Shown here: positions 24,730 to 61,188 of the stretch, in pieces | Numbering within the stretch: the stretch's first letter is position 1 | Layout of the letters: each line of letters opens with the position of its first letter | From: Arthrobacter crystallopoietes | GTDB taxonomy: Bacteria > Actinomycetota > Actinomycetes > Actinomycetales > Micrococcaceae | NCBI RefSeq assembly: GCF_017603825.1 | Contig: NZ_CP072014.1 | Span: 2,232,001 to 2,296,000, forward strand | Length of the DNA stretch: 64,000 bases | Direction: 5' to 3' | Program-made: the position numbers and the translations under genes | The notes under the pieces: model-generated | The model's database searches: none | Seen by the model: only the letters and a program-made list of their open reading frames with translations | Told to the model about the DNA's origin: nothing

Positions 24730-24767
24730 GAAAACCCGCTCCGGCTCAGGCCGGGGCGGGTTTTCTT
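24730..24767 (+). terminator. glpX terminator
   Basis: A 16-pair stem (24730-24745 with 24750-24765) around TCAG, with arms GAAAACCCGC and GCGGGTTTTC at the base, followed by TT. The A-run and U-run on the two sides make it bidirectional in principle. Confidence 0.9.
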
Positions 24768-24787: not shown

Positions 24788-24874
24788 CCCACGTTTAGGC
24801 CTAACTGTCCAAGTTTAGGCTTCAAGCAACGCGCTGACCTGCAGCGATGTTTTGGCGCCGTTTTAAACATGGGT
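24788..24874 (+). repeat. 87-bp dispersed intergenic element, copy A
   Basis: This copy aligns without gaps with 60964-61050 and with the reverse complement of 41766-41852. All three start with the same 13 bases, CCCACGTTTAGGC. They share TTTAG at positions 27-31, TTCAAG at 34-39, CTGAC and CGATG further on, and end in a GGG-containing box whose reverse complement resembles the start (ACCCATGTT against CCCACGTT). A second TTTAGGC lies inside this copy. It sits between the glpX terminator and the 3' end of the FemX gene. No open frame is conserved. Confidence 0.75.
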
Positions 24875-24941: not shown

Positions 24942-25991
24942 TCAGCGGCCGAGCTTGGCGCGCACCTTGTCCAGCGCCGGACCGGCTGCGGAACGTGCCT
25001 TCTCCAGCACGGGGCCGGCTCCGGTGCGTGCCTTGTGCAGGGCCGGCACTGCGGTATCGCGCAGCTTGCGGGCCAGGCCGTAGGCGGAGTACATCAGCTT
25101 GTTGACCGGCAGGTCCCAGGAGCCCGGGTAAGCCACCTCGAAACCGCCGAACGAGCGCTTGAAGCGGGAGAAGCCGGCCCAGGCATGGTCCGGTTCGTCC
25201 TCGGGGGAAACGCCCCACATATCGAAGCGGGTCATGCCGGAGGCCTTGGCGTCCATCATCATGGTGACCACCAGCGGGATGCCCGCGTTGAGCTTTCGGT
25301 AGGTGTCGTCGGCGGCCGCATGGGCGTAGACGCGCGTAGTCTCCGTGTCGTAGGACAGGGCCGCGGCGATCGGAGTGCCCTCCAGCTTGGCGATGAAAAG
25401 CTTGGCATTGCCGGCCGGGACCAGGGCCTCGGCGGCGCGGGTGAGGTAGTCATCGGACTGCGCCTTGAAGTCGGCCCGCTCCGACACGTCATGCAGGAAG
25501 CCCAGCAGGATGGAGATGTCCTTCGGATCGGTGGAGATCTCGAAGGTCACGCCCTTCTTGTGGATATTCCGGTAGAGGTTCCGGCTGGTGCTGCGCATGT
25601 CGGCCAGGATCTTGTCTTCGTCCTGGGTCAGATCCACCATCCAAGTCAGGTGCGGCTGGACGTCGGTGGGCGCCTTGACGAGTCCCAGTCCTGCCAGCTC
25701 GGCCTCGGCGTCGGTGCCTGGGCCGGAGGCCAGACCCGAGTGGATCGGTTCCACGCGCACGTAGTGGGCGCCCTCGGCCTTTGCCAGCGCGGCCAGGGCG
25801 TCGAGCGCGCGGGTCAGGGCCTGCTTGTCCTCGGCGGCGGGTCCGTACGGCACGTAGAGGTAACTGCCCAGCGGGGTCTTCTCGTGGATGGCCAGAAAGG
25901 AGTAGCCGTCCCCGGTGGACTCGAAGACTTTCTTCCCGAGACTGCGCTGGAACTCGGCCCAGGCGGCGGACTGCAGGATGGAGGAACTCAT
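24942..25991 (-). CDS. FemX/FemABX family peptidoglycan bridge aminoacyltransferase
   Basis: A 349-residue non-ribosomal peptidyltransferase that uses aminoacyl-tRNA to add residues to the stem-peptide lysine of lipid II. The two GNAT-like subdomains are recognisable (LQSAAWAEFQRSLG near the start; MRSTSRNLYRNIHKKGV; LNAGIPLVVTMMMDAKASG; FDMWGVSPEDEPDHAWAGFSRFKRSFGG split across about 255-285). The C-terminal 45 residues hold a repeat, KARTGAGPVLEKARSAAGP, likely a helical extension. I start at ATG 25991 (MSSSILQSAAW) because this is where the family begins. It is 32 bases downstream of manA on the same strand. An interpeptide bridge (A3-alpha type) fits Arthrobacter relatives. Confidence 0.88.
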   Translation of the reverse strand: MSSSILQSAAWAEFQRSLGKKVFESTGDGYSFLAIHEKTPLGSYLYVPYGPAAEDKQALTRALDALAALAKAEGAHYVRVEPIHSGLASGPGTDAEAELAGLGLVKAPTDVQPHLTWMVDLTQDEDKILADMRSTSRNLYRNIHKKGVTFEISTDPKDISILLGFLHDVSERADFKAQSDDYLTRAAEALVPAGNAKLFIAKLEGTPIAAALSYDTETTRVYAHAAADDTYRKLNAGIPLVVTMMMDAKASGMTRFDMWGVSPEDEPDHAWAGFSRFKRSFGGFEVAYPGSWDLPVNKLMYSAYGLARKLRDTAVPALHKARTGAGPVLEKARSAAGPALDKVRAKLGR

Positions 25992-26023
25992 GCGTCGATA
26001 TCCGTTCGTTGATTCACTGAACT

Positions 26024-27298
26024 TCATAGACTTTCATAAAACTCGGCGAATTCGCTGGCATTACCTGCGCAGGTGACCGCGAAAAGGACGGCGGGGGAGT
26101 CCGTGTTGAGCACCGGATGGACCAGCACGGGCTGTTCCGAAGCCGGGATGAACGCCGAATCTCCGCGGTGCAGGGTCAGATCCGTAACGGGCGAGTCCAG
26201 CAGTGCGCTGCCGCTGACGGCCAGCACCACAACGGGACCATGCTGGGCCAGCGGTACGGGCGTGTCGCCGTCGTTAATCTCGATGCGCTGGAGCTGGAAC
26301 TCGGCGAACGGCGGGCAGTAGAGTTCCTGGCCGGCGTCCGTCAGCTTCCGTTCCACCCGGGGAGGTTCGATCGGGCGGAAATCCGTGATCTTGAGCAGCT
26401 CGGGGATGTTGATGTGCTTGGGAGTCAGCCCGCCGCGGAGCACGTTGTCGCTGGTGGCCATGACCTCGATGCCGAGGCCGCGCAGGTAGGCATGCACATT
26501 GCCGGCCGGCAGGCTCAGGGCCTGGCCCGGCTGCAGCGTGGTCAGGTTCAGCAGCAGCGAAATCAGCGTGCCCGGGTCCTGCGGGTAGAGCTCGGCCAGC
26601 CAGCGTACCGCGGCGAATTCCGGCCCGGTTTGCTCTTCGGGGACGGCCGCCAGCACCGCGGCCGTGTTGTCGACCAAGGCAGCGGACTCGGCGCCGCCTT
26701 CGAGCAGTGTCACGAAGGCGCCGCGGATGGCCGCGGATTCATCCGGGCCCTCGAGCGACTTGATCACCCGTTCCAGCAGGGCGGTGTCCGCGTCCGCGGC
26801 ACTGAGCTTGCCATGGAGTCCACGGAAAAACCGGACGGAATCCTGCGGGTGCCGGAAGCCGCACAGGGCCTGGAACTCAGTCAGGGCGAAGAGCATTTCC
26901 GGCTTGTGGTTGTCGTCGCGGTAGCTGCGTTCGGGGGATGACAGCGGGACCTTGGCGGCGTTCTCGGCCGCGAAGCCCTGGCGTGCCTGCTCCAGCGTGG
27001 GGTGGACCTGCAGCGAGAGCGCCTCATCGGCGGCCAGGACCTTGGTCAGGAACGGCAGCTTGGCGCCGAACAGGGCGAGCGCGTTCTGGCCGAGCGCCAA
27101 CCCGGGGCCGTCGTCTATGAAGTCCGTGAGGGGCTGCTCATCGCCGTCGGGCAAATGGACCGACGACGGCGAGTCCGGGTGGGCTCCGATCCACAACTCC
27201 GCCTCGGGACTGCCTGAGGGTTCGCGGCCGAACAACTCGGCAATCGCCATCGGCGATCCCCAGGCATAGGGCCGCAGAACATTGGTCAGCCGGTACAT
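26024..27298 (-). CDS. manA: mannose-6-phosphate isomerase, class I
   Basis: A 424-residue zinc enzyme that interconverts fructose-6-phosphate and mannose-6-phosphate, the entry to GDP-mannose. Zinc ligands of the type I family are visible: Q97 and H99 in SLQVHP, E134 in DDNHKPEML, and a later histidine in the cupin region. The gene lies upstream of femX. Its product feeds mannosyl donors that the Pmt mannosyltransferase (48974-50617) and other envelope glycosyltransferases would need. GAGG lies about seven bases before the ATG. Confidence 0.94.
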   Translation of the reverse strand: MYRLTNVLRPYAWGSPMAIAELFGREPSGSPEAELWIGAHPDSPSSVHLPDGDEQPLTDFIDDGPGLALGQNALALFGAKLPFLTKVLAADEALSLQVHPTLEQARQGFAAENAAKVPLSSPERSYRDDNHKPEMLFALTEFQALCGFRHPQDSVRFFRGLHGKLSAADADTALLERVIKSLEGPDESAAIRGAFVTLLEGGAESAALVDNTAAVLAAVPEEQTGPEFAAVRWLAELYPQDPGTLISLLLNLTTLQPGQALSLPAGNVHAYLRGLGIEVMATSDNVLRGGLTPKHINIPELLKITDFRPIEPPRVERKLTDAGQELYCPPFAEFQLQRIEINDGDTPVPLAQHGPVVVLAVSGSALLDSPVTDLTLHRGDSAFIPASEQPVLVHPVLNTDSPAVLFAVTCAGNASEFAEFYESL

Positions 27299-27354
27299 TG
27301 TGGAGCCTCTTCTCTATGCAGGTACCTGAACGTGCTGGTGCGGCGTCTTCGATG

Positions 27355-29031
27355 CTAGGGCACCGAGCATTCCCCGTTCCCGCGCACGATCGACGAAAGC
27401 GTTGCCGAGTCGCCGATGACGGCCAGTTGTTGCAGGTACTCCTCGGTGATCTCCGGAGTCTGTTCAGCCGGTGTCTCGGCCGGGGCGGCTTCGGCGCCGC
27501 CGTCGTTAGCCGAAGTGTCCTCCGCGGTGCCGCCCGAATCCGCGCCGCCGTCGTTGTTTTCCCCGGCGCCGGAGTCCGAACCGCTGTCCGGCTTGGAGCC
27601 CGCGTCGCCGCCAGCTTCCTTAGTCTCCTCTTCCTGGATGAACATCTCCTGAACACGAGGGTGGATCTGGCTGAAGTCCGGGAAGGTGACGAAGTTGTCC
27701 GAGGGGGTGCCGAAGTCCGGCGGGCCGATGGTCAGCCGCTTGATCTTCTGCCCCTTGGCGTCCGCCGCCAGGGATACGAAGCTGCCGAGCTGTTCGCTGG
27801 GAATGTCCGTCTCCACGACCTCTTCGCCGGCGGAGGCCAGCTGCTGGAAGCGGGTCAGCACGGTGGCAGGGTCAAGCTGCTTGACCATCGCGGACATCAC
27901 GCACTGCTGGCGCTGCACGCGGTCATAGTCGGTGGCGAATTCGCGCGAGCGGGCGTACCAAAGCGCGTGGTAGCCGTCCAGCTCCTGCACGCCGGGGGCG
28001 ATCCAGCCCTTCGGCGGGTAGTGCTGGTTGGTGCCGGGGATGGTGCGGTCAGAGATGGGCACCCAGCCGCCGGCGTCCACGGTGATGCCGCCCATGGCGT
28101 CCACGAGGGCCTCGAAGCCGCCCATGTCCACCAGCGCGTAAGCCTGGATTTCGATGCCGAGGATTCCGCTGACCGCATCCTTCATGGCTTCGGCACCCGG
28201 GTTTTTGGCGTCCGGGTAGAGGTCCGCATGGTTCTGCTCCACGTCCACGTAGAGCGCGTTGATGATGCACTCGTCGCCGCAGTTGAAGCCCTCCGGGTAG
28301 ACCGCATGCATCGGCGAGTCCTCGGGGAACGGGGCGTTCTGGAAGTTGCGCGGGATGCCGAACATGACGGTCTGGCCGGTCTTGGCGTCCACGCTCACCA
28401 CCTGGATGCTGTCCGGGCGCAGGCCCACACGGCCGGCCCCGGCGTCGCCGCCCATCAGCAGGAAGTTGTAGCGCCCGTCCACCGGATCGAAAGCCGGGCG
28501 GGTCTCGAAGATGGTGCCCAGCGTGCTGCGTCCCACGTTCATCAGGTAGGCGCCGTAGCCCAGCGTGCCGGTGGTCAGCGCCATCAGCGCCACCAGGCAG
28601 ACCGCCACAATGGGACGCATGCCCGGCGCGAGCAGGCCGGGCCGGATGATCCGCAGCGTGTCCAGGAACAGGAACCCCCAGAACAGCGCCAGCGCCGCCA
28701 GCACGATGACCAGTACCAGCGAGCCCCAGGGGTGGGTGGCGATGTTGACCAGCGTCGGCCAATTCACCAGGGCCACGATGCCCGCGGCGATCAGCAGCGC
28801 CCACACGGTAAAGGTCACCCGCAGCGCTTTGTGGCCGAGATTGCGGTTGCCCGCCACCAGCTGCGCGCTGCCCGGGATGAACAGAGTCAGCAGCAGCAGG
28901 ATGAACGCGCGCTTGGTCCGGACCGGGGCGGGCGCGCTCTGCGGGTAGCGGACCGGATCGGTGACGCCGTAGCCATCGTCGCCGCGATTGCCGCGGCGCG
29001 GACTGTCCTGTGGGGCGATGCGCGGCGTCAT
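27355..29031 (-). CDS. LytR-CpsA-Psr (LCP) family wall-polymer ligase
   Basis: A 558-residue membrane protein. Three or four helices occupy about residues 40-165, and the LCP domain lies outside the membrane at about 185-420: [10 protein letters not shown] (with the conserved Asp), [21 protein letters not shown], then [22 protein letters not shown] split over 345-365, which carries the catalytic arginines. A Ser/Asp/Gly/Ala-rich linker follows (about 455-530) with the repeated element NDGGA. The enzyme transfers glycopolymers from a lipid carrier to peptidoglycan. The start overlaps the purE stop by four bases. Confidence 0.92.
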
Positions 29032-29540
29032 GACAATTTTGCCCGCAGGGCTTCACCCTTGTCGTACGCGCTTTGGCGCAGCTCAGCGGCGAAGTCAGCC
29101 AGCTGCGGCTGCAGCCGGGCGGCAAGGTCATCGGTTCCGGCGGCCAGCATCCGGACCGCCAGGAGCCCGGCGTTGCGGGCACCGCCGATCGAGACGGTGG
29201 CCACGGGAACACCGGCGGGCATCTGCACGATGGACAGCAGCGAATCCATGCCGTCCAGCATCTTCAGCGGCACCGGGACACCGATGACCGGCAGTGTGGT
29301 GACCGATGCCAGCATGCCCGGCAGGTGCGCGGCGCCCCCGGCCCCGGCGATGATGGCGCGCAACCCGCGGCCCTGGGCCTCCTTGCCGTAGCGGATCATG
29401 TCCTCGGGCATGCGGTGCGCGGAGACCACATCGGCCTCGTACGGGATGCCGAATTCTTCCAGCGCCGCGGCTGCAGCCTGCATGACGGGCCAGTCCGAAT
29501 CGGAGCCCATTACGACGCCGACAATCGGGTTTTCGCTCAT
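29028..29540 (-). CDS. purE: 5-(carboxyamino)imidazole ribonucleotide mutase
   Basis: A 170-residue class I PurE that moves the carboxylate from N5-CAIR to give CAIR in purine synthesis. Motifs: GSDSDW at residues 12-17, SAHR at 40-43, and [11 protein letters not shown] near 65-75. It overlaps purK upstream (ATGA) and the LCP gene downstream (ATGA), so the three are coupled. Confidence 0.95.
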
Positions 29541-30730
29541 AAGTTGCCTTCCTGCGGGTCTGCCCCGGCGCGCTGCGGGTCTACCCCGTCGCGGATGATC
29601 GCGGCCACCCTTGCGGCCTTGGTGCGCAGCACGTCTACGTCCGAAGCGTGCCGGCCCACCACATTAACATGTCCGATTTTGCGGCCCGGACGCACCGACT
29701 TGCCGTAGCCGTGGACCTTGACGTCCGGTTCGGCCGCCAGCGCCTGCGGGTAGGCGCCGAACAGATCCGTGTTGGCTCCGCCCAGGTAGTTCTTCATAAC
29801 GACGACGGCGCCCAGTGCCGTCGTATCGCCCAGCGGCAGGTCCAGGACCGCGCGCAGGTGCTGCTCGAACTGGCTGGTCACGCAGCCGTCCATCGTCCAG
29901 TGGCCGGTGTTGTGCGGGCGCATGGCCAGCTCGTTGATGACGAAGCCCTGGCCCTGGCCGGGGGTCTCGAACAGTTCGGCGGCCATCACGCCGGTGACTC
30001 CGAGCTCCTCGGCGAGGCGCAGCGCGGCCTGCTGGGCGGCCTCGGCCACCTCGGCGGAAAGTTCCTGGGCCGGGGCGATGACCTCGTCGCAGACGCCGTC
30101 CACCTGGATGGTGTGGGCCACCGGCCAGGGCTTGGCTTCGCCGGAAGGCGTGCGGGCCACCAGCGCGGAGAGCTCGCGGCTGAAATCCACCTTGTCCTCG
30201 GCCAGCAGCGGTGTCCCGGTGAACCAGTCAGCGGCAGCCGCGGCAGCGCTGGCGTCGTCAATCATGCGCACGCCCTTGCCGTCATAGCCGCCGCGCGGAG
30301 TCTTGAGCACCACAGGCCAGCCCGTCTGCTCGCCGAACGCGACCAGCTCCTCGACGGTGGAAACTGCTGCCCAGGCCGGGTTGGGCAGGCCGAGCTTTTC
30401 GACGACGCCGCGCATGATGAGCTTGTCCTGTGCGTGGATCAGGGCATCCGGTTGCGGCTGGACATTGACGCCCTCGCCGATCAGGGTCTGCAGGTGCTCG
30501 GTGGGGACGTGTTCGTGATCGAAGGTCATCACATCCAGGCCCTGGGCGAACTGGCGCAGCGTGTCCAGATCCTTGTAGTCGCCGACCGGAGCGTTGGCCA
30601 CGGCCGCGACCGCGGAGACGTCTTCTGCCTCGGCCAGGACACGGAGTTCGAAGCCAAGGGCTACTGCACAGGGGGCCATCATGCGGGCTAGCTGGCCGCC
30701 GCCAACAACGCCAATTACTGGGAAAGTCAC
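29537..30730 (-). CDS. purK: 5-(carboxyamino)imidazole ribonucleotide synthase
   Basis: An ATP-grasp enzyme of 397 residues that makes N5-CAIR from AIR, bicarbonate and ATP, the substrate of PurE. The N-terminal motif [14 protein letters not shown] binds [16 protein letters not shown] is the ATP-grasp loop; [12 protein letters not shown] is the metal and substrate region. I chose GTG 30730, where family similarity starts and where TACGCT lies six bases upstream (leaderless pattern). GTG 30751 is the alternative. It is the first gene of the purK-purE-LCP run. Confidence 0.93.
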
Positions 30731-30902
30731 GTAGTTAGCGTACCGAACCACATCCCCGATAGCCCTATCCCCGGCCGTGCGGCACTGCTAACCTTCGCTG
30801 ACCCGGCCCGATGTCCTAGGAAACATTCAGCCGCCCGACTTAGAATGGGGCCTCGGTGCCATCCGGTGCTGCCCGTTGAGGAAAAGGATCCCGCTGAAGC
30901 TC

Positions 30903-31598
30903 ATGCAGATAACGATCGCCGACCGTATCCGGGGCCTGATCTCCCTGTTCTGGCGGGAGGTGGCGAAGTTCGGGACCGTCGGCGGCGTGGCTTTCGTCAT
31001 CGACAACGGCCTCTACTGGTGGCTGATCAACGGCCCCATGTCGGACAGCGAGGTCAAGGCGCGCCTGGTTTCGGCGTCGGTGGCCACACTGTTTTCCTGG
31101 GTGGCCAACCGCTACTGGACGTTCCGCGACCGGCGCCAGCCCAACCCCGTCCGCGAACTGATCATGTTTGTAGTGATTAACGTCATCGGCATGCTCATTT
31201 CGGCCGGGTGTGTCTGGATCGCCAAGTACCCGCTGGACATCGAAGGCCGTACCGAGCTGCTCATCGCCGGCATCTTCGGCACCGTGGTCGCCACGGTCAT
31301 GCGCTTCTTTGCCTACCGCTTCCTGGTCTTCAATGCCGAACTGGATGCCGAGCCGGAGTTTGCGCACGACCACGAGATCTTCGAGCACGAGCATGCCGGT
31401 GCAGGGCATGACCGCGTTGAAGAACGCGGCGGCCGCGGGCACGGCGGAGCTGCAGGCGGCGGAACCGCCACCGGTGGAATCAGCCCAAGCGAGAATGAGC
31501 GTCGCGGATTCAGCTCTGACGATCAGTCACTCGACAGCCAGGCCCGCGATGGACACGTGGCCGGCCCCGGCCCCCGGCGCCCCCAGCCGCCGATCTAG
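30903..31598 (+). CDS. GtrA family membrane protein
   Basis: A 231-residue protein with the GtrA fold: four transmembrane helices between about residues 18 and 142 (VAKFGTVGGVAFVIDNGLY in the first; ANRYWTFRD after the second; VMRFFAYRFLVF in the last). GtrA proteins are thought to flip or shuttle lipid-linked sugars. The C-terminal 85 residues are hydrophilic and rich in His, Gly and Glu. I use ATG 30903; TTG 30876 is in frame and would add nine residues. TAGAAT at 30841-30846 may be the -10 element. It is divergent from purK, as Rv3277 is from Rv3276c. Confidence 0.87.
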   Translation: MQITIADRIRGLISLFWREVAKFGTVGGVAFVIDNGLYWWLINGPMSDSEVKARLVSASVATLFSWVANRYWTFRDRRQPNPVRELIMFVVINVIGMLISAGCVWIAKYPLDIEGRTELLIAGIFGTVVATVMRFFAYRFLVFNAELDAEPEFAHDHEIFEHEHAGAGHDRVEERGGRGHGGAAGGGTATGGISPSENERRGFSSDDQSLDSQARDGHVAGPGPRRPQPPI

Positions 31599-32299
31599 AG
31601 CTGCTCGGTGATCCGTTCGTTGGCCACCAGCTTCGCCGTGTCGTGCACCGACTGGTGGCACAGCACCACGGTTCCGCCGCCGAGCCAGGTGGCCACGGCC
31701 TCGGTCAAGGTGGTGAACCAGTCCGACTTCGTGGGAATCAGGATGTTGCGGCTGACAGGCTCGCGGTGCAGCAGCGCATCAAAGGTGAGCGAGCCGCCGT
31801 CGTACTCCAAGGCCGTTGCCGAGTTCTCGGCCGAGCCCATTCCCATAAACACGTCGCCGTAGGAACGCACTTCGGCTGCGTAATCCAGCACGCCCTCGGG
31901 CAGCGCACCCGGCCAGCCCAGCGCCAGCGCGCCCTCGGCCACAGCAACCTGGTACGCCGGGCCGCCGCCCAGCCGGTCCAACTCATTGCTTACGACGACG
32001 TCGGGCTCCGTGCCGCCGTCGTCTCCGGCTGCGTCCACGGTCAGCGTGGCGCCGGTCTGCCAGCCGGCCAGCGCCCACACCACGGACCGCCAATGCGGCG
32101 GCATGGCCAGCCGGATGACCGTCCCGGGCTCGGCGTCCAGTTCCTCCGAGAGCAGGTTCGCCGTCTTCGCAACCCAGTTGTCCAGCACCCGGCCGGAGAG
32201 CTCCACTCGTTCGCCATCCGGGCCGTACCAGATGAGCGCGGGGGAGGAGTCCGGGCGCAGGACTGCCAGCAGTTGGTCGATGGTGCTCACTGAATGCAC
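31595..32299 (-). CDS. TIGR03089 family protein
   Basis: A 234-residue protein related to the N-terminal part of AMP-forming acyl-CoA synthetases but too short to contain the C-terminal catalytic lid. Segments such as LSGRVLDNWVAKTANLL, VIRLAMPPHWRSVVWALAGWQ (split) and SDWFTTLTEAVATWLGGGTVV correspond to ligase core elements. Function unknown; a regulatory or substrate-binding role is possible. GTG 32299 has AGGAG five bases upstream, which decides the start. The stop overlaps the convergent GtrA stop by four bases. Confidence 0.85.
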   Translation of the reverse strand: MHSVSTIDQLLAVLRPDSSPALIWYGPDGERVELSGRVLDNWVAKTANLLSEELDAEPGTVIRLAMPPHWRSVVWALAGWQTGATLTVDAAGDDGGTEPDVVVSNELDRLGGGPAYQVAVAEGALALGWPGALPEGVLDYAAEVRSYGDVFMGMGSAENSATALEYDGGSLTFDALLHREPVSRNILIPTKSDWFTTLTEAVATWLGGGTVVLCHQSVHDTAKLVANERITEQL

Positions 32300-32420
32300 G
32301 GGTGCTCCTGAAGGTGGGTCGGTACGGTTGGGCTTGCTTCCAGCGTATCTGCAGGCACTCGAGCGGGCATCGGGGCGGGACTGCTTCACCGCCCGCTTTC
32401 CACACATCACATCCGCCCCG

Positions 32421-32449
32421 CTGACACCACAAGCCACGAGTAGTAAATT
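32421..32449 (+). promoter_or_regulatory. promoter of the candidate small RNA
   Basis: CTGACA (32421-32426), a 17-base spacer and TAAATT (32444-32449) match the housekeeping sigma consensus at five of six and four or five of six positions. Transcription would start near 32456. Confidence 0.45.
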
Positions 32450-32455
32450 GGGCTG

Positions 32456-32542
32456 CAGCTTGCGTATTCCTTGAGCTGACGGGCCTTCCGGCGCGCCGGG
32501 CAAACCCACCCACGCTTTCGGGCGTGGCGTACACGCTTTTTT
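32456..32542 (+). ncRNA. candidate small RNA upstream of whiB
   Basis: A predicted transcript of about 87 bases from the promoter at 32421-32449 to an intrinsic terminator. The terminator is GCGTG-GCGTA-CACGC followed by six T (32522-32542). An upstream hairpin, CCACGC/GCGTGG (32510-32527), shares GCGTG with it, so the two are mutually exclusive, like an attenuator pair. A 12-base palindrome CCGGCGCGCCGG is at 32488-32499. The segment between is C-rich and single-stranded (CAAACCCACCC). No open frame is convincing. It may be an independent small RNA or an attenuated leader for whiB from a distal promoter. Confidence 0.4.
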
Positions 32543-32574
32543 GCCGTCGGAGTCGATAAGATTCCCGCTTTGGC

Positions 32575-32603
32575 TTGACTTGCACGACTTACACCAATGT
32601 AAT
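32575..32603 (+). promoter_or_regulatory. whiB promoter with overlapping inverted repeat
   Basis: TTGACT (32575-32580), 17 bases, TGTAAT (32598-32603). Transcription would start near 32610, which leaves a leader of about 88 bases. TTACA-CCAA-TGTAA (32589-32602) is a perfect inverted repeat that covers the -10 element and could be an operator. The remaining gap from 32300 to 32420 shows nothing I can name. Confidence 0.55.
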
Positions 32604-32697
32604 TAGGTATCGGATTTGTAACAGCAATGAAGACGCAGCGGCTGTTCAGGCCATTGCATTTCTGGCACACGCTGGGACAACGACACCGGGAGGGCTC

Positions 32698-33252
32698 ATG
32701 GGGCAGGCAGAGCGTATAACGGACCGTACGGAATTAGAGGCACAGGCTTCAATCCGGTACGGTTCCCGCGGCGTACCAGCGGACTGGTATGTGGATCCGG
32801 CTGATCCCGCAGCGGCAGAGCGTTACCACGAAACAAGCCAGCAGTCTCTGGAAAACCAGGCCACCGCATTCCTCGCCGCGCATCAGGCACTTGCTGCCGA
32901 TGTCGAGGATCTGCAGGCCGACGAAACACACGAAGTGGCCGCGCCGCGCATGCTGCATGAGGTCGCGCCGCCGAAGGAACAGCCCGTCTGGATCGGTCTG
33001 CCCGGATTCGGTTCGGACTTTGACGATGAGGGCGAGCTGGGCTGGCAGGCGGATGCCTTGTGCGCCCAGACGGACCCGGAGGCGTTCTTCCCCGAAAAGG
33101 GCGGCTCAACCCGGGATGCCAAGAAGGTCTGCGGAGCGTGCACCGTGCGCGCCCAGTGCCTGGAGTATGCCCTGGCCAATGACGAACGCTTTGGAATCTG
33201 GGGCGGCCTTTCGGAGCGCGAGCGCCGACGCCTGAGGAAGCGGGCAGTCTAA
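32698..33252 (+). CDS. WhiB family iron-sulfur transcription regulator
   Basis: A 184-residue regulator. The [4Fe-4S] ligands are C122, C145, C148 and C154 (spacing 22, 2 and 5), followed by FGIWGGLSERERRRLRKRA, the G(V/I)WGG turn and basic DNA-binding tail. WhiB proteins bind the housekeeping sigma factor; the position before cell-envelope genes matches whiB2 (WhmD, WhiB of sporulation and septation). It carries an unusual N-terminal extension of about 115 residues, rich in Ala, Glu and Gln. ATG 32698 has GGGAGGG five bases upstream, which decides the start. The stop overlaps the proposed start of the GT2 gene. Confidence 0.92.
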   Translation: MGQAERITDRTELEAQASIRYGSRGVPADWYVDPADPAAAERYHETSQQSLENQATAFLAAHQALAADVEDLQADETHEVAAPRMLHEVAPPKEQPVWIGLPGFGSDFDDEGELGWQADALCAQTDPEAFFPEKGGSTRDAKKVCGACTVRAQCLEYALANDERFGIWGGLSERERRRLRKRAV

Positions 33253-36200
33253 TTCACCAGCAAGTTCGCGTTACCGCCGTTGTAGTCGCCCACAACGGCG
33301 CCGAATACCTGTCCGAGACGCTCGCTGCCCTCAACGCGCAAACCCGGCCGGCTGACTTCCATATTGGCGTGGACACCGGCTCCACCGACACCTCGGTTTC
33401 GCTCCTGGAACAGACCTTGCCGGCGGGCAGTCCCGTGGTCAAGACCTCTGCGCGGGCCGGATTCGGCACGGCGGTGCGCGTTGCCCTGGACGAGCTCAAG
33501 AACCAGAAGAACGGCGACGGCGTGCCGGCCTCCGTTGCGCCTGCCGTCTCCGTCTCCGTTCCGTCCCCGGCTTCGGGCCAGGCGGACGAGTTGGCCGAGG
33601 CTTCCCGCCCGGCCGCCACAGGCCGGGGGGATTCCCGTGCTGCGGCGGGGACTGCCGGCGGCGCCACTACACGCCCAACCGCTTCCGGCGCTACCGCTCC
33701 CGCGGCCATGGCTGCTGCCGGCGGCCGCGTGCAGGAATGGGTGTGGCTGCTGCATGATGACTCCGCGCCGGAACCGGATGCGCTGGAAGAACTGCTGCTC
33801 GCCGTGGAGACCGCCCCGTCGGTCACCATCGCCGGCTGCAAGCAGGTGGACTGGGAGAATCCGCGCAAGCTGATCGACGTCGGGCTGACGGTAACGCGCG
33901 GCGCCGAACGGCTGACCATGATCGACCTGGACGAGATGGACCAGGGCCAGTACAACGGCCGCAGCGACTTCTTCGCCGTGAACTCCGCGGGCATGCTCAT
34001 CCGCCGCGATGCGTTCGAGGAACTGGGAGGGTTCGACCCGGCGCTGCCCGGCATCGGCGACGACGTAGACCTCTGCTGGCGCAACAGGCTGGCCGGCAAC
34101 CGCGTAGTCGTGGTGCCGACGGCGACAATGCGGCATGCGACCTCACGCGGCAACCCGCATGCTGCGGCCATGGCAGCCCGGCGCTCCCAGATCCACCTGC
34201 GGCTCAAACACGCGGCGTGGTGGCAATTACCCCTCCTGTGGATCGGTACGCTGCTCGGCGGTTTCTTCAGCTTCATTATCAGCACCGTTGCCAAGGACCC
34301 CGGCCACGGCCTGCGGCAACTCCTGGCCACGCTGTCCGCCCTGTTCCGGCCACGGGAATTCCTGCAGGCGCGCAAGCAGGCCGGCGCCACCCGCAGGTCA
34401 TCCAGAAGCATCATCAAGCCGCTGATGGTCAAGCGGCAGGATGTCTTCGCCTACCGCCGCTCGCTGATGGAATCCGTCAGCGCCGAGCATGTGCTCGGGG
34501 ACGGTACGGGCACCGACACCATCGGCAGCTACGAACCCACGGGTGGTTCGGACGAATTCGCGTCCATGGCCTCGCCGCTGCGGACCTGGGTAGGCACCGG
34601 CGCCGTGGTTGCCACCCTGGTGCTGGCGCTCGTGTCCATCATCGGCATGTTCGGCTTCCTCGGCGTTCCGGCGCTGGCCGGCGGCGCCCTGCTTCCGGTC
34701 TCCGCGGATCTGGCCGAGATCTGGCACAACGCCTCCGCCTGGTGGATCAGTCTCGGCTCGGGCATGCCCGGCCACGGCGACCCGTTCGGCTATGTGCTGG
34801 CCGTACTGGCAATCCTCGCGCTGGGCAACGGCTCCGCCGCGGTCCTCACCCTGATCCTGCTGGCGATGCCGCTGGCCGGTCTCGCCGCGTGGGTGGCTGC
34901 CGGTGCCTTCACCCAGCGCCGCTCGCTGCGCTTGTGGGCCGCTTTCTTCTGGGCCAGCCTGCCGGTTCTCCAAGTGGCTCTCGGCTCAGGCCGGCTCGGC
35001 GCGCTGATCGCCCATCTGATGATTCCGTGGGCCGTGCTGGGGCTGGTCCGCGCAACCGGCTCTGCGGTACAGCGGCTGAATCCGGATCCGCTCAAGCCGC
35101 GGCCCGAGGTCATCCACAAGCCGGGCATCAACGGCATTCCATCCTGGACCGCTGCCGCTGCCGCAGGTCTCTGCCTGGCCGTCATCACCGCTTCCGCTCC
35201 GGCACTGCTGCCGGTCTTTATCATTTTCGTCGGCATTATTTGCCTCAAGCGCGGCCGGCGCGCCAAAACCGTGTGGTGGTCGCTGGTGCCGCCCCTGGTA
35301 CTCGCCCTGCCGATGCTCCTGACTGCGATGGACAACCCTCGGGCACTGCTCGGCGACCCGGGCGTGCCGCTGTCCTTCGACGGCGCCCCGCTCTGGCAGC
35401 AGATCATGGGCTTCCCCGTGGCGTTCGACACCTTCGCCGGTCTGAGTGCCTTAGGCTTCCTCGAGTCGCTGGGCCAAGGCCCATGGGCACTGGTCTTCGC
35501 ACTGCTCACCGGCGTGCCGATGCTGGTGCTGGCCGCCGTCGGCGTGCTGCTTCCCGGCAGCAGCGCCGGCGTTGCCCGGTTGTCCTGGCTGGGCGCGATC
35601 GTGACTCTGGCCGCCAGCTGGGTCTCCGCCATGATCGCTACCGCAATCGCCCCGGGTGCCATGGTGCCTCCGTTCACCGGCCCGTTCGTTTCGCTGGCGC
35701 TGTTCCTGCTCCTGGCCGCGGCCCTGGTCGGCGGGGACAGCGGCATGCAGCGCCTGCACACCCTGAACGAGCCGCGGAAGGAACGCAAGGGTGCCTTCCG
35801 CGCCATAGCCGTTGCCGCCGTCGTTGTTCTGGCTGCCGGCCCGGTGCTGAATCTGGCGCACTGGCTCCTGCCGCAGCTGATCGCCGAGGAAACAGTTGCC
35901 GCCGAAGGGCGCGCCCTGACCGACTTCGGTGCTGAAATGCAGCTCGAGCCGGGCCAGGCTCGGATCCTTCCGGCCACGGCCACGGACCGGGGCACCGGGC
36001 CCGAACGCACCCGCTCGCTGGTGCTGAGCAGCGAGAGCGGTTCGATCAGCGCCGCCGTGATGCACAGCGGCGGGACCACCATGGATCAGTTGTCCCCGAT
36101 CTACGCGGCCCGGTCCATTACCGGCGGCCTCTTCGACGCTGAACGGCGGGAGGACGACGACGCCACCGCGGCCGCACGGAACGCAGTCGCCGTGATCGCC

Positions 36201-36884
36201 GCCGGCACCGGAGTGGACCCGCGGGAGGAACTGGCACGGCTCGGCGTCGGCTTCGTGGTGCTGCAGCAGACGGACAGTTCCGCCGAACTGCTGGCCAACA
36301 GGATCGACGCCGTGCCCGGACTCAGCGCCGTGGGACGCACGGATTCGGGCTGGCTGTGGCGCGTGGTTCCGGACCGGAGCGGCGAAGACGACACCAGCAG
36401 CACGCTGACCAGCCGCGTGCGCGTGATCGACAGTACGGGAGCGCTGCTGCAGACGGTGCCGTCCTCCTGGACCAGCGCCGGAACCACCATTCCCGAAGGC
36501 AATGCCGGACGCATGGTGGTCCTGGCCGAACGGATGAACCCGGGCTGGACTGCAACCCTTAACGGCCAGCCGCTCGAGCAGGCGGAGAACGGTTGGGCGC
36601 AGGCGTTCAAGGTGCCCGAAACCGGCGGCGAACTGCGGATCAGCTACACCAACCCGTGGGGCATTTGGGTAGCCATTGTGCAGATCATCTTCCTCGGCAT
36701 CACCGTCCTGCTGGCCATTCCGATCCCGTCCCGGCAGCGCTTCGTGCCCCGGCGGGTCGACCACATCAGAACCACCGGCACGGACAGCAGCCCCGAAGAA
36801 CTGCGGATCGCCGCACACGAGATCGACCGCGCCGACAGTCACCACGCCGACGCGGCACCTGCCACGGCAGGGAAGGAACCGTAG
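33252..36884 (+). CDS. large membrane glycosyltransferase family 2 protein with proposed ATT start
   Basis: About 1210 residues. The N-terminal GT-A domain begins VRVTAVVVAHNGAEYL and shows LLHDDSAPEPDALEE (donor-site aspartates) and DDVDLCWRNRLAGNRVVVV at about 269-287. A 70-residue Ala/Pro/Ser-rich insertion (about 90-160) interrupts it. About twelve or more transmembrane helices follow (about 310-330 and 440-870), then an outer domain of about 300 residues and a last helix near 1135-1160. Coding similarity starts upstream of the first ATG, GTG or TTG in frame (GTG 33369), which would remove the first strand of the fold. The first plausible codon is ATT 33252, which overlaps the whiB TAA. 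It probably transfers sugars to an envelope polymer. Confidence 0.82.
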   Translation: MHQQVRVTAVVVAHNGAEYLSETLAALNAQTRPADFHIGVDTGSTDTSVSLLEQTLPAGSPVVKTSARAGFGTAVRVALDELKNQKNGDGVPASVAPAVSVSVPSPASGQADELAEASRPAATGRGDSRAAAGTAGGATTRPTASGATAPAAMAAAGGRVQEWVWLLHDDSAPEPDALEELLLAVETAPSVTIAGCKQVDWENPRKLIDVGLTVTRGAERLTMIDLDEMDQGQYNGRSDFFAVNSAGMLIRRDAFEELGGFDPALPGIGDDVDLCWRNRLAGNRVVVVPTATMRHATSRGNPHAAAMAARRSQIHLRLKHAAWWQLPLLWIGTLLGGFFSFIISTVAKDPGHGLRQLLATLSALFRPREFLQARKQAGATRRSSRSIIKPLMVKRQDVFAYRRSLMESVSAEHVLGDGTGTDTIGSYEPTGGSDEFASMASPLRTWVGTGAVVATLVLALVSIIGMFGFLGVPALAGGALLPVSADLAEIWHNASAWWISLGSGMPGHGDPFGYVLAVLAILALGNGSAAVLTLILLAMPLAGLAAWVAAGAFTQRRSLRLWAAFFWASLPVLQVALGSGRLGALIAHLMIPWAVLGLVRATGSAVQRLNPDPLKPRPEVIHKPGINGIPSWTAAAAAGLCLAVITASAPALLPVFIIFVGIICLKRGRRAKTVWWSLVPPLVLALPMLLTAMDNPRALLGDPGVPLSFDGAPLWQQIMGFPVAFDTFAGLSALGFLESLGQGPWALVFALLTGVPMLVLAAVGVLLPGSSAGVARLSWLGAIVTLAASWVSAMIATAIAPGAMVPPFTGPFVSLALFLLLAAALVGGDSGMQRLHTLNEPRKERKGAFRAIAVAAVVVLAAGPVLNLAHWLLPQLIAEETVAAEGRALTDFGAEMQLEPGQARILPATATDRGTGPERTRSLVLSSESGSISAAVMHSGGTTMDQLSPIYAARSITGGLFDAERREDDDATAAARNAVAVIAAGTGVDPREELARLGVGFVVLQQTDSSAELLANRIDAVPGLSAVGRTDSGWLWRVVPDRSGEDDTSSTLTSRVRVIDSTGALLQTVPSSWTSAGTTIPEGNAGRMVVLAERMNPGWTATLNGQPLEQAENGWAQAFKVPETGGELRISYTNPWGIWVAIVQIIFLGITVLLAIPIPSRQRFVPRRVDHIRTTGTDSSPEELRIAAHEIDRADSHHADAAPATAGKEP

Positions 36885-36886
36885 CC

Positions 36887-38722
36887 ATGGCAGACACGCC
36901 TGACAACCAGCCCGACGAGCACTCCGCCCCTGCGGATCCGCAGGACGCTGTGCCCGGCAAGGCCAAACGCGGGACCCGCAAGGGGCCCCGCGCGGCGAGG
37001 GCCGCCAAGGCTGAAGCAGCCGCGGCAGCAAAGTCATCGGCTGCAAATTCGTCCCCGGCAACCAAGAAGGCTGCGGCTCCCGCTGCCGGTACGACGGCGG
37101 ATGCAACGCCGCGCCCGGACAGCCGGGAAGACAATCCTGCAGTCGGGAAGAAGAACGGCCGCCTGGTTGGCCTTGCCGCCGGGCTAGGCATCCTCGTTCT
37201 CGGCACCGGTGGCGTCGTAGCCGGCAGCGTCATGCAGCCGCCGCGGGCTGCCGCCGAACTGCCGCCGGTTTCGGCTGCCGTTCCGGCGGGCGAGTACACC
37301 GGCGTCTGCCCCGAGCCGCTGAAACTCTTGGACAGCTCGGCCGAAGAGGTGGATCCCGAGTTCAGCCCTCTCTCCACGACGGCGGAAACCCGGGCACGCG
37401 CCGTCGTACTTAGTGATTTGGGTGGAACGGTGCCGGGCAGCGCACTGTATGAACTCGGCTCCGACTCTCCGCTGCGCGAAATCGCGGAGTTCACCGGTGA
37501 GGCCGGCAGCACCGGCCGAAGCGAAGCGGGGGAGACCAAGGTCCTGGCCGAAGTGGTGCCGAGCCAGGACATTTCTGCGGCTACCGTACTGACGGTGGAG
37601 CCGATGGGGCAGCAGCACCCGCAGGCGGGGGCGACCATGACCTACACCGCCGAAGACGGTGACCTGCGCGGTTTGGCCGCGGCCAACTGCATGACGCCAT
37701 CGAACGATTTCTGGCTGCTCGGCGCCTCCACCACGGTGGGCAGCAGCGCCGTGCTGAACCTTTACAACGCCACCGAAACCGCGTCCACGGTGGACCTTAA
37801 ACTAGTCGGCGCCGAAGGGCCGATCCAGGCCGCCGGCAGCCGGGGGCTGCTCATCGCCCCGGGCGAATCGAAGTCCATTGTGCTGGCGGGCCTGGCCGCC
37901 AACCAGGAATCGCTGGCCGTGCATGTCAGTTCCTCCGGCGGTCCGATTGTCGGGACCATCCAGCAGAGCATCCTGCGCGAACTGACCCCTGGCGGCGTGG
38001 AACTGCTGCAGCCGTCGGCCGGAGCGGGCCTGAGCCAGGTGCTCACCGGGATTGCCGTGCAGGACGAAAAAACTGCGCAGCAGATCCGCGGGCAGGCCGG
38101 GTACGAGAATGCCTCGCCTGCGCTGAACGTTGTGGTTCCGGGCGCCAGTGACGCCACGGTTCAAGTACGGGTTTTCGGTCCGAAGGGCCAGGTGGCCCTT
38201 CCCGGCGGGGGAGTGTTCAACGCGGCGGCGGGAACGGTGTCGGCTATCCCGCTCGACTCGCTTCCGCAGGGAACGTACTCGGTGGAAGTGACCTCGGACG
38301 TCTCCGTGGTGGCTTCGGCACGAGCGAGCCGGGGCACGGGCGAGGGCGACCCCGTCGATTTCGGCTGGGCTCCGTCCACCGACCGGTTGGGCAGCGAACA
38401 CCTGGCCCTCGTGCCCGGCGGCGTCAGCTCCCGGTTCTCCTTCATCGCCCCGGAAGGCAACGCAAAGGTCAGCCTGACGCCGATCAGCGCGAACGGCCGG
38501 CTCGGCACCGAACGGGTGGTCGATGTGCCGGGCGGAAGCACCGTCTCGCTGGATCCGAAGGCTAACGGTGCGGATCCGGCGGCCCTCCTGATCGGCGCCA
38601 CCGGGGACCCGGTCTACGGCTCGCTGGTGGTCTTCAACGGCAGCTCGCCGAACGTCTCGGTGCTGCCTGTTCCGCCGGGAACGCAGGGCCGGCAGAGCGT
38701 GCCGGTCTTCCTGGGCTACTGA
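36887..38722 (+). CDS. DUF5719 family membrane-anchored protein
   Basis: A 611-residue protein. The first 85 residues are Ala/Lys-rich and cytoplasmic; one transmembrane helix lies at about 88-112 (LVGLAAGLGILVLGTGGVVAG). The rest is an extracytoplasmic beta-rich region with repeated immunoglobulin-like segments (for example NLYNATETASTVDLKLVG and VQVRVFGPKGQVALPGGG). The family always follows a large GT2 gene in related actinobacteria, so they may work together at the envelope. AAGGAA lies about nine bases before the ATG, which is two bases after the GT2 stop. Confidence 0.83.
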   Translation: MADTPDNQPDEHSAPADPQDAVPGKAKRGTRKGPRAARAAKAEAAAAAKSSAANSSPATKKAAAPAAGTTADATPRPDSREDNPAVGKKNGRLVGLAAGLGILVLGTGGVVAGSVMQPPRAAAELPPVSAAVPAGEYTGVCPEPLKLLDSSAEEVDPEFSPLSTTAETRARAVVLSDLGGTVPGSALYELGSDSPLREIAEFTGEAGSTGRSEAGETKVLAEVVPSQDISAATVLTVEPMGQQHPQAGATMTYTAEDGDLRGLAAANCMTPSNDFWLLGASTTVGSSAVLNLYNATETASTVDLKLVGAEGPIQAAGSRGLLIAPGESKSIVLAGLAANQESLAVHVSSSGGPIVGTIQQSILRELTPGGVELLQPSAGAGLSQVLTGIAVQDEKTAQQIRGQAGYENASPALNVVVPGASDATVQVRVFGPKGQVALPGGGVFNAAAGTVSAIPLDSLPQGTYSVEVTSDVSVVASARASRGTGEGDPVDFGWAPSTDRLGSEHLALVPGGVSSRFSFIAPEGNAKVSLTPISANGRLGTERVVDVPGGSTVSLDPKANGADPAALLIGATGDPVYGSLVVFNGSSPNVSVLPVPPGTQGRQSVPVFLGY

Positions 38723-38758
38723 GCCGGCTGGCCTGCTGAGGCAGTTGGGCCGACCAGG

Positions 38759-39250
38759 TCAGGAGCGGGTGCGGCCGTAGCTGGGGTCAACGGCCTCGGG
38801 CGCCATGCCGAGCAGCTCGGCGGCTTGTTCCACCACGACATCGTGAACCAGTTCCGGCAGCTCCTCCCTGCTGTCCGCCTCCCGTTCCACCGGACGCCGG
38901 AAGACAGTAACGACGGCGGGCCGTCCCGGAGCCGCAGGAGTGAAGCTGCCAAGGGGCGCGGGGCCGCCTGCAGCAACCAGTTCCTCCAGGTTCGGCGGGA
39001 TTTCGGCGACCACGAATTGGGTGGCTTCGATGGGGTCCCCCCACAAATAATGAAGCCGTTCCGCGGAGTCCGAGACCCAGCCTTCAAAGCGCTCTTCCCG
39101 GGTGTGGTTGCCCGGCAGGTGGGCGGGCAGAAGCTCACCGCGCAGTCCGCGCCCGTGGCGGTTCCGCCGTCGTTGTTCGAACGGCTTTGATTTGCCGCCG
39201 GACTGCGCTGCACCACTCAGCCTGACGTCGAGCGATGGTCCGTTTTTCAT
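38759..39250 (-). CDS. zincin-like metallopeptidase family protein without an HExxH motif
   Basis: A 163-residue protein of the family in the position of Rv3259. The family start RRRNRHGRGLRGELLPAHLPG lies at about 27-47. The C-terminal region, where typical members have HExxH, reads LVHDVVVEQAAELLG, so the metal site is not intact and catalytic activity is doubtful. TAGAGT lies six bases before the ATG (leaderless pattern). It is divergent from the DUF3499 gene with 90 bases between the starts, as in Rv3259-Rv3258c. Role unknown. Confidence 0.75.
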   Translation of the reverse strand: MKNGPSLDVRLSGAAQSGGKSKPFEQRRRNRHGRGLRGELLPAHLPGNHTREERFEGWVSDSAERLHYLWGDPIEATQFVVAEIPPNLEELVAAGGPAPLGSFTPAAPGRPAVVTVFRRPVEREADSREELPELVHDVVVEQAAELLGMAPEAVDPSYGRTRS

Positions 39251-39340
39251 ATATTGACTCTAATCCTGTGCGCCGCCAAAAGCACGGCGAAGCGTGCCGT
39301 TGCACGTTCTTCAGGCCTGAGGCGGGTAGGATGCATAGTC

Positions 39341-39730
39341 GTGGGATCCATACGCCAATGTTCACGCTCGGCCTGTCAACGGTCGGCCATCGCTACTTTG
39401 ACGTACGTGTATGCCGATTCCACGGCTGTCCTCGGGCCGCTGGCCACCTATGCCGAACCGCACTGCTACGACCTGTGCGCCGAGCACGCGGAGCGGCTGA
39501 CCGTACCGCGCGGCTGGGAAGTCATGCGGCTGGCCCTGCCCGAGCAGCCTCCGGTCCCGAACACCGATGACCTGATGGCCCTGGCCAAGGCGGTCCGCGA
39601 GGCAGGAACCGTGCCCGCCGGTCCGGACGAAGCTCCGGCCCAGCGCGGCCTGCGCGAACCGATCGAGCCGCCGGCCGAGCCCGGCGGAGCCCGCCGCGGT
39701 CACCTGCGCATTCTGCGCGGACAGCAGTAG
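39341..39730 (+). CDS. DUF3499 family protein
   Basis: A 129-residue protein. The family core CSRSACQRSAIATLTYVYADS continues into GPLATYAEPHCYDLCAEHAERLTVPRGW (given here in parts), with cysteines and histidines that could bind zinc: C7, C12, then H-C-x3-C. The C-terminal 60 residues are Pro/Glu-rich. GTG 39341 is the start by homology; TAGGAT lies eight bases upstream and no ribosome site is visible, so a leaderless mRNA is likely. Trm112 and ahcY follow on the same strand. Confidence 0.85.
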   Translation: MGSIRQCSRSACQRSAIATLTYVYADSTAVLGPLATYAEPHCYDLCAEHAERLTVPRGWEVMRLALPEQPPVPNTDDLMALAKAVREAGTVPAGPDEAPAQRGLREPIEPPAEPGGARRGHLRILRGQQ

Positions 39731-39834
39731 GGCGATAACCTGAAGTGAAGAAATCCGCGCCGCCGGCCAGCCCGGGCCGTCTGCGTGCCGGTATGTCCTG
39801 ACGCCAGGATCACAGGATCAAAGGAACTATCACC

Positions 39835-40089
39835 ATGGCCCATCTTTCCCCTGAATTGCTTGCCGTCCTGCGCTGTCCGGTGACCGGCTCGTCGCTGGTC
39901 CAGGAAGGCGAGGAACTGGTTTCCAGCGCGAAGGACGCCAGCGGCCGGCAGCTGCGCTACCGCATCGACGAGGGCATCCCCGTCCTGCTTCCGCCGGCGC
40001 TGCAGGAAGCCGGCCAGGCCGGCGCCCAGCCCGCCAAAGAGCAGCCCGCCACCGACAATTCCCCGAATACCCCGGCAACCGACGCCTAA
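39835..40089 (+). CDS. Trm112 family protein (UPF0434)
   Basis: An 84-residue protein. The Trm112 core is visible: [15 protein letters not shown], then [16 protein letters not shown]. Only one cysteine of the usual zinc site remains. The family activates methyltransferases in eukaryotes and archaea; the bacterial role is less clear. The gene directly precedes ahcY, whose product removes the S-adenosylhomocysteine that methyltransferases release, so a link to methylation is plausible. AAGGAA lies about eight bases before the ATG. The Gln/Ala/Pro tail is disordered. Confidence 0.87.
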
Positions 40090-40108
40090 CCAACGCCCAG
40101 GAGAACAC

Positions 40109-41611: not shown

Positions 41612-41646
41612 GTCCCAACGCACCACCGCTCTCCAGCGAACGACGG

Positions 41647-41684
41647 CGGGCCGGTCACCTTCGGGTGCCCGGCCCGCGGTTTTT
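41647..41684 (+). terminator. ahcY terminator with TTCG tetraloop
   Basis: A 13-position stem with one mismatch (CGGGCCGG-T-CACC against GGTG-C-CCGGCCCG) is closed by C(TTCG)G, the stable tetraloop, and is followed by CGG and five T. Confidence 0.92.
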
Positions 41685-41765
41685 CGTGGGCCCTGCTGCT
41701 GCTGACGGCGGTGCGACGTTTCTGTAGCCGCCCGATCCCATGTGAAGTTGCCCTAGCCCCTTCGA

Positions 41766-41852
41766 GCCCAGGTACTAAACGGGCCGCCGGCATCGCCGCA
41801 GGTCAGAGCATTGCTTGAATGCTAAAGCGGAGAAAAAGTGCCTAAACGTGGG
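41766..41852 (-). repeat. 87-bp dispersed intergenic element, copy C (reverse)
   Basis: The reverse complement aligns without gaps to copies A and B over 87 bases. It begins CCCACGTTTAGGC and contains TTCAAGCAATGCTCTGACCT, which differs from copy A at two positions in 20. It lies in the 408-base gap between the ahcY terminator and the aminotransferase gene. Apart from the terminator and the -10-like TAGGAT at 42005, nothing else is recognised in this gap. Confidence 0.75.
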
Positions 41853-42019
41853 CGCGAACGGACTCCCGAAGGACCGAACCACCGAAATCACCGCTCGCAG
41901 CGCTGCGCCGTGCCGCCCGTTCCCCGTGGCGGGCGAAAGCCGGACCGGCTGGCATGATGAAGTGAGGCGTGCAGCCAGGCTGCACCGAGAACCGCTCACA
42001 ACGTTAGGATGCAGACGTC

Positions 42020-43129: not shown

Positions 43130-43136
43130 CCTGATT

Positions 43137-43177
43137 GCGGTTTCGGTTCCAAGCCGTTGGTCCGGAACCGAAACCGC
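43137..43177. terminator. bidirectional terminator between aminotransferase and RDD gene
   Basis: A perfect 14-pair stem (GCGGTTTCGGTTCC with GGAACCGAAACCGC) with a 13-base loop ends directly at the RDD stop codon. The two genes converge here. Confidence 0.88.
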
Positions 43178-60810: not shown

Positions 60811-60850
60811 CGGCAGGACCCGGGCACTAACCCGGGTCCTGCCGGCGTTT
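60811..60850 (+). terminator. rpfB terminator
   Basis: A perfect 14-pair stem, CGGCAGGACCCGGG with CCCGGGTCCTGCCG, around CACTAA, then GCG and TTTT. It implies that rpfB and rsmA are not simply one operon here. Confidence 0.9.
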
Positions 60851-60963
60851 TAAGGGCGGGCGACGCTCCGGTCCAGCCCTTGCAAATCCCGCCGGCCAGC
60901 GTCTGTTCCCCGCTCCAGCAGGCCCATATGCCGCAGGGTGAGACCCACGTTCAGGCGTTCGGA

Positions 60964-61050
60964 CCCACGTTTAGGCGCTTCGTGCGGTTTTTAGCTTTCA
61001 AGTAACGCCCTGACGTGGGCCGATGTTGCCGGCCGATTCAGAACATGGGT
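60964..61050 (+). repeat. 87-bp dispersed intergenic element, copy B
   Basis: Aligns without gaps to copies A (24788-24874) and C (41766-41852, reversed). An extra half-copy of the first box, CCCACGTTCAGGC, stands at 60944-60956, 20 bases upstream. Inside this copy CCCACGT can pair with ACGTGGG, but that pairing is not kept in the other copies. It lies in the 398-base gap between rpfB and rsmA. The rest of the gap (61051-61176) shows no further feature except the -10-like TACGAT before rsmA. Confidence 0.75.
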
Positions 61051-61188
61051 TTGAAGCCCCTGCTTTGCTCGCCGCGGGCTGCGGCCACTGTCTCATCGAT
61101 GCTCGAGCGTCTCCCCGGGGCGGCCGGATCCGTCACGGTGCCGCCGGGCGTTTAAGGTGCGGCACAGATCAGCGGCTACGATGGCACA

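Follow-up and report, generated by a model that had tools for sequence, protein, structure and literature searches.

The window, a 64,000-nucleotide stretch of Arthrobacter crystallopoietes DNA (contig NZ_CP072014.1, positions 2,232,001 to 2,296,000), contains three copies of a short repeated element, each in a gap between genes. Copy A (24788..24873, plus strand) occupies the gap in which glpX (+) and a FemX-like gene (−) converge, copy C (41767..41852, minus strand) the gap between ahcY (+) and an aminotransferase gene (+), in an orientation opposite to both, and copy B (60964..61049, plus strand) the gap between an rpf-like gene (+) and rsmA/ksgA (+). The glpX, ahcY and rsmA assignments scored above curated family cut-offs, and the FemX, Rpf and aminotransferase matches below theirs. 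Plus-strand terminator-like hairpins, read from the sequence, were located behind glpX (24731..24765, with a T run, upstream of copy A), ahcY (41642..41684, with a T run, adjoining copy C) and the rpf-like gene (60811..60852, upstream of copy B). The original prediction had placed all three copies past the terminators of these genes; a hairpin is present at each, the exception being that copy C points against ahcY.

The predicted coordinates and gap-free alignment of the three copies were reproduced, as were their imperfect inverted ends and the invariant blocks CCCACGTTTAGGC, TTTAG (positions 27–31), TTCAAG (34–39), CTGAC and CGATG. The length, put at 87 bp, is indeed fixed, but the symmetrical unit measures 86 bp and base 87 lies outside it; free variation of the middle 20 bases, also proposed, holds for the linkers and not beyond them. 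The box CCCACGTTTAGGC, with two or fewer mismatches, occurred seven times in the window vs. 1.41 expected, a count reached in none of 100 shuffles, and the three window copies are real and beyond chance.

In the window's genus, the layout comprises left box 1 (positions 1–13), left box 2 (21–33), the core TTCAAGCAACGCNCTGACCTGCGGCGATG (34–62), and an inverted box extending up to position 86. The left boxes are 20–21 bp apart, core length is nearly constant, the right box is inverted, and the ends are complementary. The right half exists in two forms, ending in GTTTTAAACGTGGG or GCTTGAAGCCTAAAGCTGTAC, both of which keep the span of 86 in most copies. Left box 2 of copy A (24808..24820, plus strand) lies 20 bp after box 1 and differs from it by two mismatches, and the additional half-box predicted for copy B was located at 60944..60956 (plus strand), one 20-bp period upstream, with one mismatch. 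Box sequence varies among the copies of one genome, yet left and right boxes agree within a copy. What is preserved is the palindrome, the box register and the core length; the element is short, non-coding and intergenic, conserved in length and bounded by terminal inverted repeats. In one relative (G003), three consecutive copies with different box types are found within about 400 bp of the rpf–rsmA gap (L044:3801-4203).

A sequence model built from the three window copies (R1) produced seven matches in the source genome at E ≤ 10. Besides the window copies these were copy D (E = 3.4e-19), which adjoins a gene resembling thiD (its top HMP-P kinase score is 202.1 bits vs. a cut-off of 204.95), the full-length copy E (E = 0.0075), and two partial matches (E = 0.14 and 0.30). 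Over 99 genomes at E ≤ 0.01, R1 matched 13, comprising the ten of the window's genus plus three further genomes that each gave a single weak match. A repeat search of 54 fetched sources gave 70 matches, 64 of which were listed after excluding two loci present twice, a copy in a relative that was identical to C, another truncated at a contig end, another from outside the genus, and one weak match. Fifty-four of the listed copies were aligned (omitting ten with changed length or only a partial match), resulting in a MAFFT alignment of 106 columns with zero gaps. These copies trained a second model (R2), with the terminal helix included, which returned 94 rows at E ≤ 0.05 over the genus, with 3 to 19 rows in each of its ten genomes, several weaker rows being opposite-strand matches to the same palindrome. 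E-values of R1, R2 and the R3 model introduced below are rough, and training copies match by construction; with that reading, 79 R2 matches counted from the list fell at E ≤ 1e-5 in the genus. The profile searches that had been proposed as a check thus detected the element in all ten genomes examined from the genus and, in the source genome, exceeded both the original three copies and the chance level, R1 adding copy D and the 54-copy model totaling six copies at E ≤ 1e-5. Searching genome contigs with the core pattern gave 28 stretches, nine in Arthrobacter records and 19 scattered ones taken as chance.

The sixth copy of the source genome (L016:1491-1587, genome position 1,101,877) has a shorter core and a span of 77. 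Similar 98-base matches occur in G002, G004, and G005, each about 25 kb from the counterpart of copy E, so this short-core form seems to have been inherited at one place. With dnaA at 921,982, all six source-genome copies lie on one side of it, at +0.18 to +1.37 Mb, and together with all five G002 rows they occupy 0.18 to 1.42 Mb on that side; because sites are shared, the one-sidedness in these two genomes is not independent. Complete genomes of the second genus described below have no consistent side, and nothing was inferred about clustering near the replication terminus. Within the window, positions ∼25,000–43,950 share 98.7% identity with the relative G005 over 19.9 kb, vs. ∼93–94% on both sides. 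On its left this tract begins in the gap that separates glpX from the FemX-like gene, just past copy A, with 173 of 201 fourfold sites matching G005 in glpX and 207 of 210 in the FemX-like gene. From these identities, the stretch looks like a recent recombination tract that carried copy C along.

Applied to 295 genomes of the family at E ≤ 1e-3, R2 matched 16, ten from the window's genus and six from one other genus. These six, each with one weak match, were the only ones among the 285 family genomes outside the window's genus, and have the boxes and inverted box in common. A model built from the six matches (R3) detected 12 of the 15 second-genus genomes at E ≤ 1e-3, the largest count for a single genome being 33 rows, many of them the two strands of one palindrome. 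At 1e-5, R3 matched 12 of the 295 family genomes, all of the second genus and none from the window's genus. Given the six R2 matches and the range of R3, these are, as judged from sequence comparison, two sister families in two genera, linked by weak but structured similarity.

From 115 rows we took 75 second-genus places, in 52 of which the inner boxes were 69–72 bases apart; in the remaining 23 the script picked a neighboring box or the length differs. Extra boxes in the second genus extend outward, spaced 21–23 bp in the left arm and mostly 21 bp in the right. Among the 52 copies, 29 had none, 11 had them on one arm only, and 12 on both arms, and the numbers on left and right were correlated (Spearman 0.64, p = 3e-7, n = 52, orthologous pairs kept in). 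At one locus (L235:1385-1740), between DNA-glycosylase-like and apt-like genes (read by eye), a single core has 7.2 repeats of a 21-bp unit to its left and, to its right, 6.7 repeats of an inverted unit; the units are homogeneous within each arm and different between arms.

Gene context was assigned with a crude GC-based gene caller, by which 63 of 65 copies were classifiable: convergent gaps held 24, tandem gaps 34 (15 oriented with the genes, 19 against), and divergent gaps five. Element-free gaps of at least 120 bp at 13 loci comprised 12 convergent, 40 tandem, and 14 divergent. Convergent gaps were over-used (Fisher p = 0.018) and divergent gaps under-used (p = 0.046); copies likely prefer gene 3′ ends, the effect being modest.

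Clustering of the 65 copies by tblastx of masked flanks yielded 30 sites, 10 of them common to two to six genomes and 20 in single genomes; sites A and D were each used by six genomes, E by five, C by four, and B by three. At site A, the element had zero indels among four close species, and its flanks many. Its identity among these species (0.80–0.93) compares with 0.86–0.93 at glpX fourfold sites, and between clades it is higher (0.71–0.81 vs. 0.64–0.67). Slow substitution at site A was rejected: among close species the element changes no more slowly than the fourfold sites, and its identity is higher only between clades. In a comparison of 26 copies at five sites, over 86 positions, copies from different sites within the window's clade agreed on average at 59.4 of 86 positions (45 pairs), vs. 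53.4 for the same site in different clades (35 pairs) and 51.0 for different sites and clades (130 pairs). When clade labels were permuted within sites, the observed contrast was reached in 0 of 5000 permutations. The other clade had no such clade-wise effect, with 51 positions agreeing for different sites (88 pairs) and 55.9 for the same site (17 pairs). Sites therefore recur and sequence follows clade in one clade, a pattern that points to concerted evolution or to the same gaps having been occupied repeatedly.

Site B provides the one presence/absence comparison with a clear empty allele. The rpf–rsmA gap of three relatives lacks the copies: about 300 bp of the stretch around copy B (60842..61157) is missing, with near-copies of GGCGTTTAAGG at both junctions. 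The difference is thus ∼300 bp rather than 86, and the junction near-repeat is 11–14 bp. Since two other genomes carry copies at site B, gain and loss are equally likely there. In two relatives, the place of copy C is taken by unrelated sequence.

The original prediction offered a protein-binding array or a miniature mobile element. Its description of a single dispersed element, intergenic and fixed in length, with inverted ends and repeated boxes, stands, and both readings are live; direct repeats, recent copies and an 86-bp empty allele, which would speak for mobility, were not found. The target-site duplication that had been suggested as a check failed to appear: the copies are not bordered by a direct repeat of fixed length, and of the many offsets tried none gave a convincing one (best z 3.0). 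Among copies with unrelated flanks, the closest pair from different genomes has 12 differences and the closest pair in the same genome 13, and within a genome copies differ at at least 13 of 86 positions unless duplicated together with their flanks (52 copies). A Y1 transposase (PF01797) was present in only one of 25 genomes of the two genera and had no link to the element, and a REP/RAYT system was rejected on this count. Transposase_20 genes occur in nine of ten genomes of the window's genus, and a scan for parent-element ends near them (30 loci of 50 rows) gave one weak match with four mismatches. Searched with blastn against 72,556 plasmid and 50,697 phage records, copy A with its flanks (131 bases) matched nothing at E ≤ 1, on which basis we rejected a plasmid or phage origin. 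The 18-base pattern CCCAGCTTTAGGCTTCAA in one viral contig, without the remainder of the element, was taken as chance, and integron attC sites were dropped because the end motifs are in the wrong orientation.

In one genome (G009), four contigs (C10, C13, C17, and C65; L154, L120, L121, and L119) end at the identical core base, position 53, and four others (C5, C14, C20, and C22; L159, L164, L153, and L170) start inside the core or in the right half of the element, which would fit several insertions of a repeated sequence in the core; this genome's short contigs are masked. The end of C5 may resemble an IS30-type end. The Transposase_20 loci did not support an IS110-type insertion as the cause of these breaks.

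Complementarity of the two arms extends beyond the boxes. Positions −8 to 0 and 87 to 95 were paired in 56.4% of cells, vs. 37.0 ± 2.2% with shuffled partners (maximum 45.3% in 2000 shuffles; 52 copies), and 42 thinned copies gave 219 paired flank cells vs. 143.1 ± 9.3. These statistics concern related sequences rather than independent events, and most of the tests ignore phylogeny. The 20-pair terminal helix was paired in 68.9% of cells vs. 57.1 ± 1.1% (54 copies). A check for covariation, also proposed at the outset, was positive: the terminal helix scored 0.355 vs. 0.183 ± 0.014 (0.105 to 0.139 for slid versions; 54 copies), with the signal extending into copy-specific flanks. One of the five helix measures, the number of pairs changed on both sides, was without excess (17 vs. 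17.4 shuffled; 54 copies). Second-genus flanks were also paired (293 vs. 248.7 ± 11.4; 47 copies, 14 positions), more weakly than in the window's genus.

We tentatively favor, at a little less than even confidence, an old, lineage-specific family of non-autonomous palindromic intergenic elements of ERIC/IRU type, maintained as palindromes. Such a family would have spread long ago, moved by a putative trans-acting factor, and would not have moved recently. In its favor are the presence in all ten genomes of the genus, the ungapped alignment of 54 copies, the span of 86 in most of them, the paired flanks and covarying terminal helix, the sister family with its constant inner distance, the bias among gap types, and the 20 sites confined to single genomes. 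Movement is only inferred, because there is no target duplication, no recent copy and, among Y1 and Transposase_20 genes, no linked mobile gene. The helix measure without excess, the weaker second-genus pairing and the uneven folding of single copies also count against this reading. The palindrome itself may be kept as a single-strand hairpin, in transcript or DNA, or as a symmetrical target, and placement behind terminators would do little harm or some good.

A possible but rather less probable alternative is that a putative lineage-specific DNA-binding protein recognizes, on each arm, boxes separated by two helical turns and spans the core between them, the elements being fixed chromosomal sites that serve as landmark, roadblock, or insulator at gene ends. 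Box spacing of 20–21 bp, a core constant in length though differing in sequence, the correlated extra-box numbers of the two arms (Spearman 0.64, n = 52), the sharing of sites between species, and a box type that follows clade within the window's clade all agree with such a protein. A single protein, however, has no need of boxes that vary from copy to copy in one genome yet match between the two arms of each copy. Copy number also ranges from 3 to 19 rows among species, and in the other clade different-site copies are no more alike than copies across clades (51 of 86 both ways).

A structured RNA or transcript hairpin, acting in 3′ end protection, in termination, or as a small RNA, appears doubtful. 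The covarying terminal helix and the location behind genes are in its favor, as is a lean to the plus strand in the flanks of the window's genus, where G.T cells numbered 59 vs. 60.9 expected and A.C cells 29 vs. 41.0 (positions −12 to 0, 42 thinned copies). This asymmetry is absent over positions −8 to 10 (G.T and A.C 66 cells each; 52 copies) and from the second genus (G.T 79 of 80.5, A.C 56 of 59.0). Folding of seven stretches was uneven (z from −0.13 to −4.56), copies A and C folding no better than shuffles, and tandem-gap copies run against their genes slightly more often than with them (19 vs. 15). Rfam gave zero matches in the window at gathering scores and, at four loci, one match far under the gathering score and outside the element, and a known RNA family was rejected. 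The original verdict, "rather than a conserved RNA," is nonetheless weaker than stated: the ends covary strongly and G.T is less depleted than A.C in the window's genus, though not in the second.

We consider it still more doubtful that the element is an ancient functionless repeat whose arms are held complementary by template switching in replication. Arms that match each other better than they match other copies, the lack of strand asymmetry in the second genus, and site A divergence close to that of glpX fourfold sites among close species would fit such a neutral palindrome. Against it, core length and box register at site A are free of indels while the flanks have many, and extra boxes are balanced across arms although arm units were homogenized separately in one locus. 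Chance similarity of three intergenic stretches, which the modest identity of the three copies and nothing else favors, is virtually impossible, being ruled out by the box excess, the R1 and R2 genome matches (the R2 search refuting it directly), and the sister family.

Balanced arms and clade-wise sequence change are the strange parts of these data, and they leave room for a dedicated recognizing factor. On a more specific proposal, which we regard as unlikely though worth stating, the elements would be symmetrical nucleoprotein platforms of a putative lineage-specific system, in which inward-facing box arrays in helical register flank a core of measured length and are re-established at the same gene ends across species, being re-tuned in concert within a clade as the recognizing factor changes. 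If true, this would make them a new class of dispersed site on bacterial chromosomes, or else substrates for an undescribed mobile system. Two sister families with shared sites, countable boxes, and paired arms form a comparative system on which the three readings (mobile, protein, and RNA) differ in their predictions. For annotators of these genomes, the element is a recurrent non-coding feature behind many terminators.

The literature, as far as our search extended into it, contained no report of the element. It is like the MITEs of known insertion sequences in having terminal inverted repeats and a fixed length and in being gene-free; unlike them, it has no target duplication, no parent element at the Transposase_20 loci scanned, and a variable box number outside a fixed core, whereas transposon ends would be fixed on the outside. 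REP/BIME elements (cf. PMC12306157), which are associated with RAYT (Y1) transposases, are palindromic, extragenic, and dispersed. The element shares these three properties but differs in the rarity of Y1 transposases (one of 25 genomes) and in arms set far apart around a long core, vs. one short hairpin in REP. Closest are the enterobacterial ERIC and RU-1, RU-2, and RU-3 repeats, which, in the description given by PMC2759123, are likewise ∼100 bp, non-coding, intergenic, multicopy, bounded by terminal inverted repeats, and located at gene ends. That paper names TA ends and TA duplications for ERIC/RU repeats; the element has neither, a conserved TA being absent from both ends in the alignment of 54 copies, and for this reason we describe it as working like ERIC/IRU without classing it as one. 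A stable stem-loop is a further ERIC/RU trait, against which the seven folded stretches gave z from −0.13 to −4.56. Also unlike ERIC/RU, as described there, are its 20–21 bp box register, its fixed-length core, and, in the sister family, extra boxes outside the core. Enterobacterial intergenic palindromic repeats have long been known; the element resembles these repeats of gut bacteria but has an architecture of its own.
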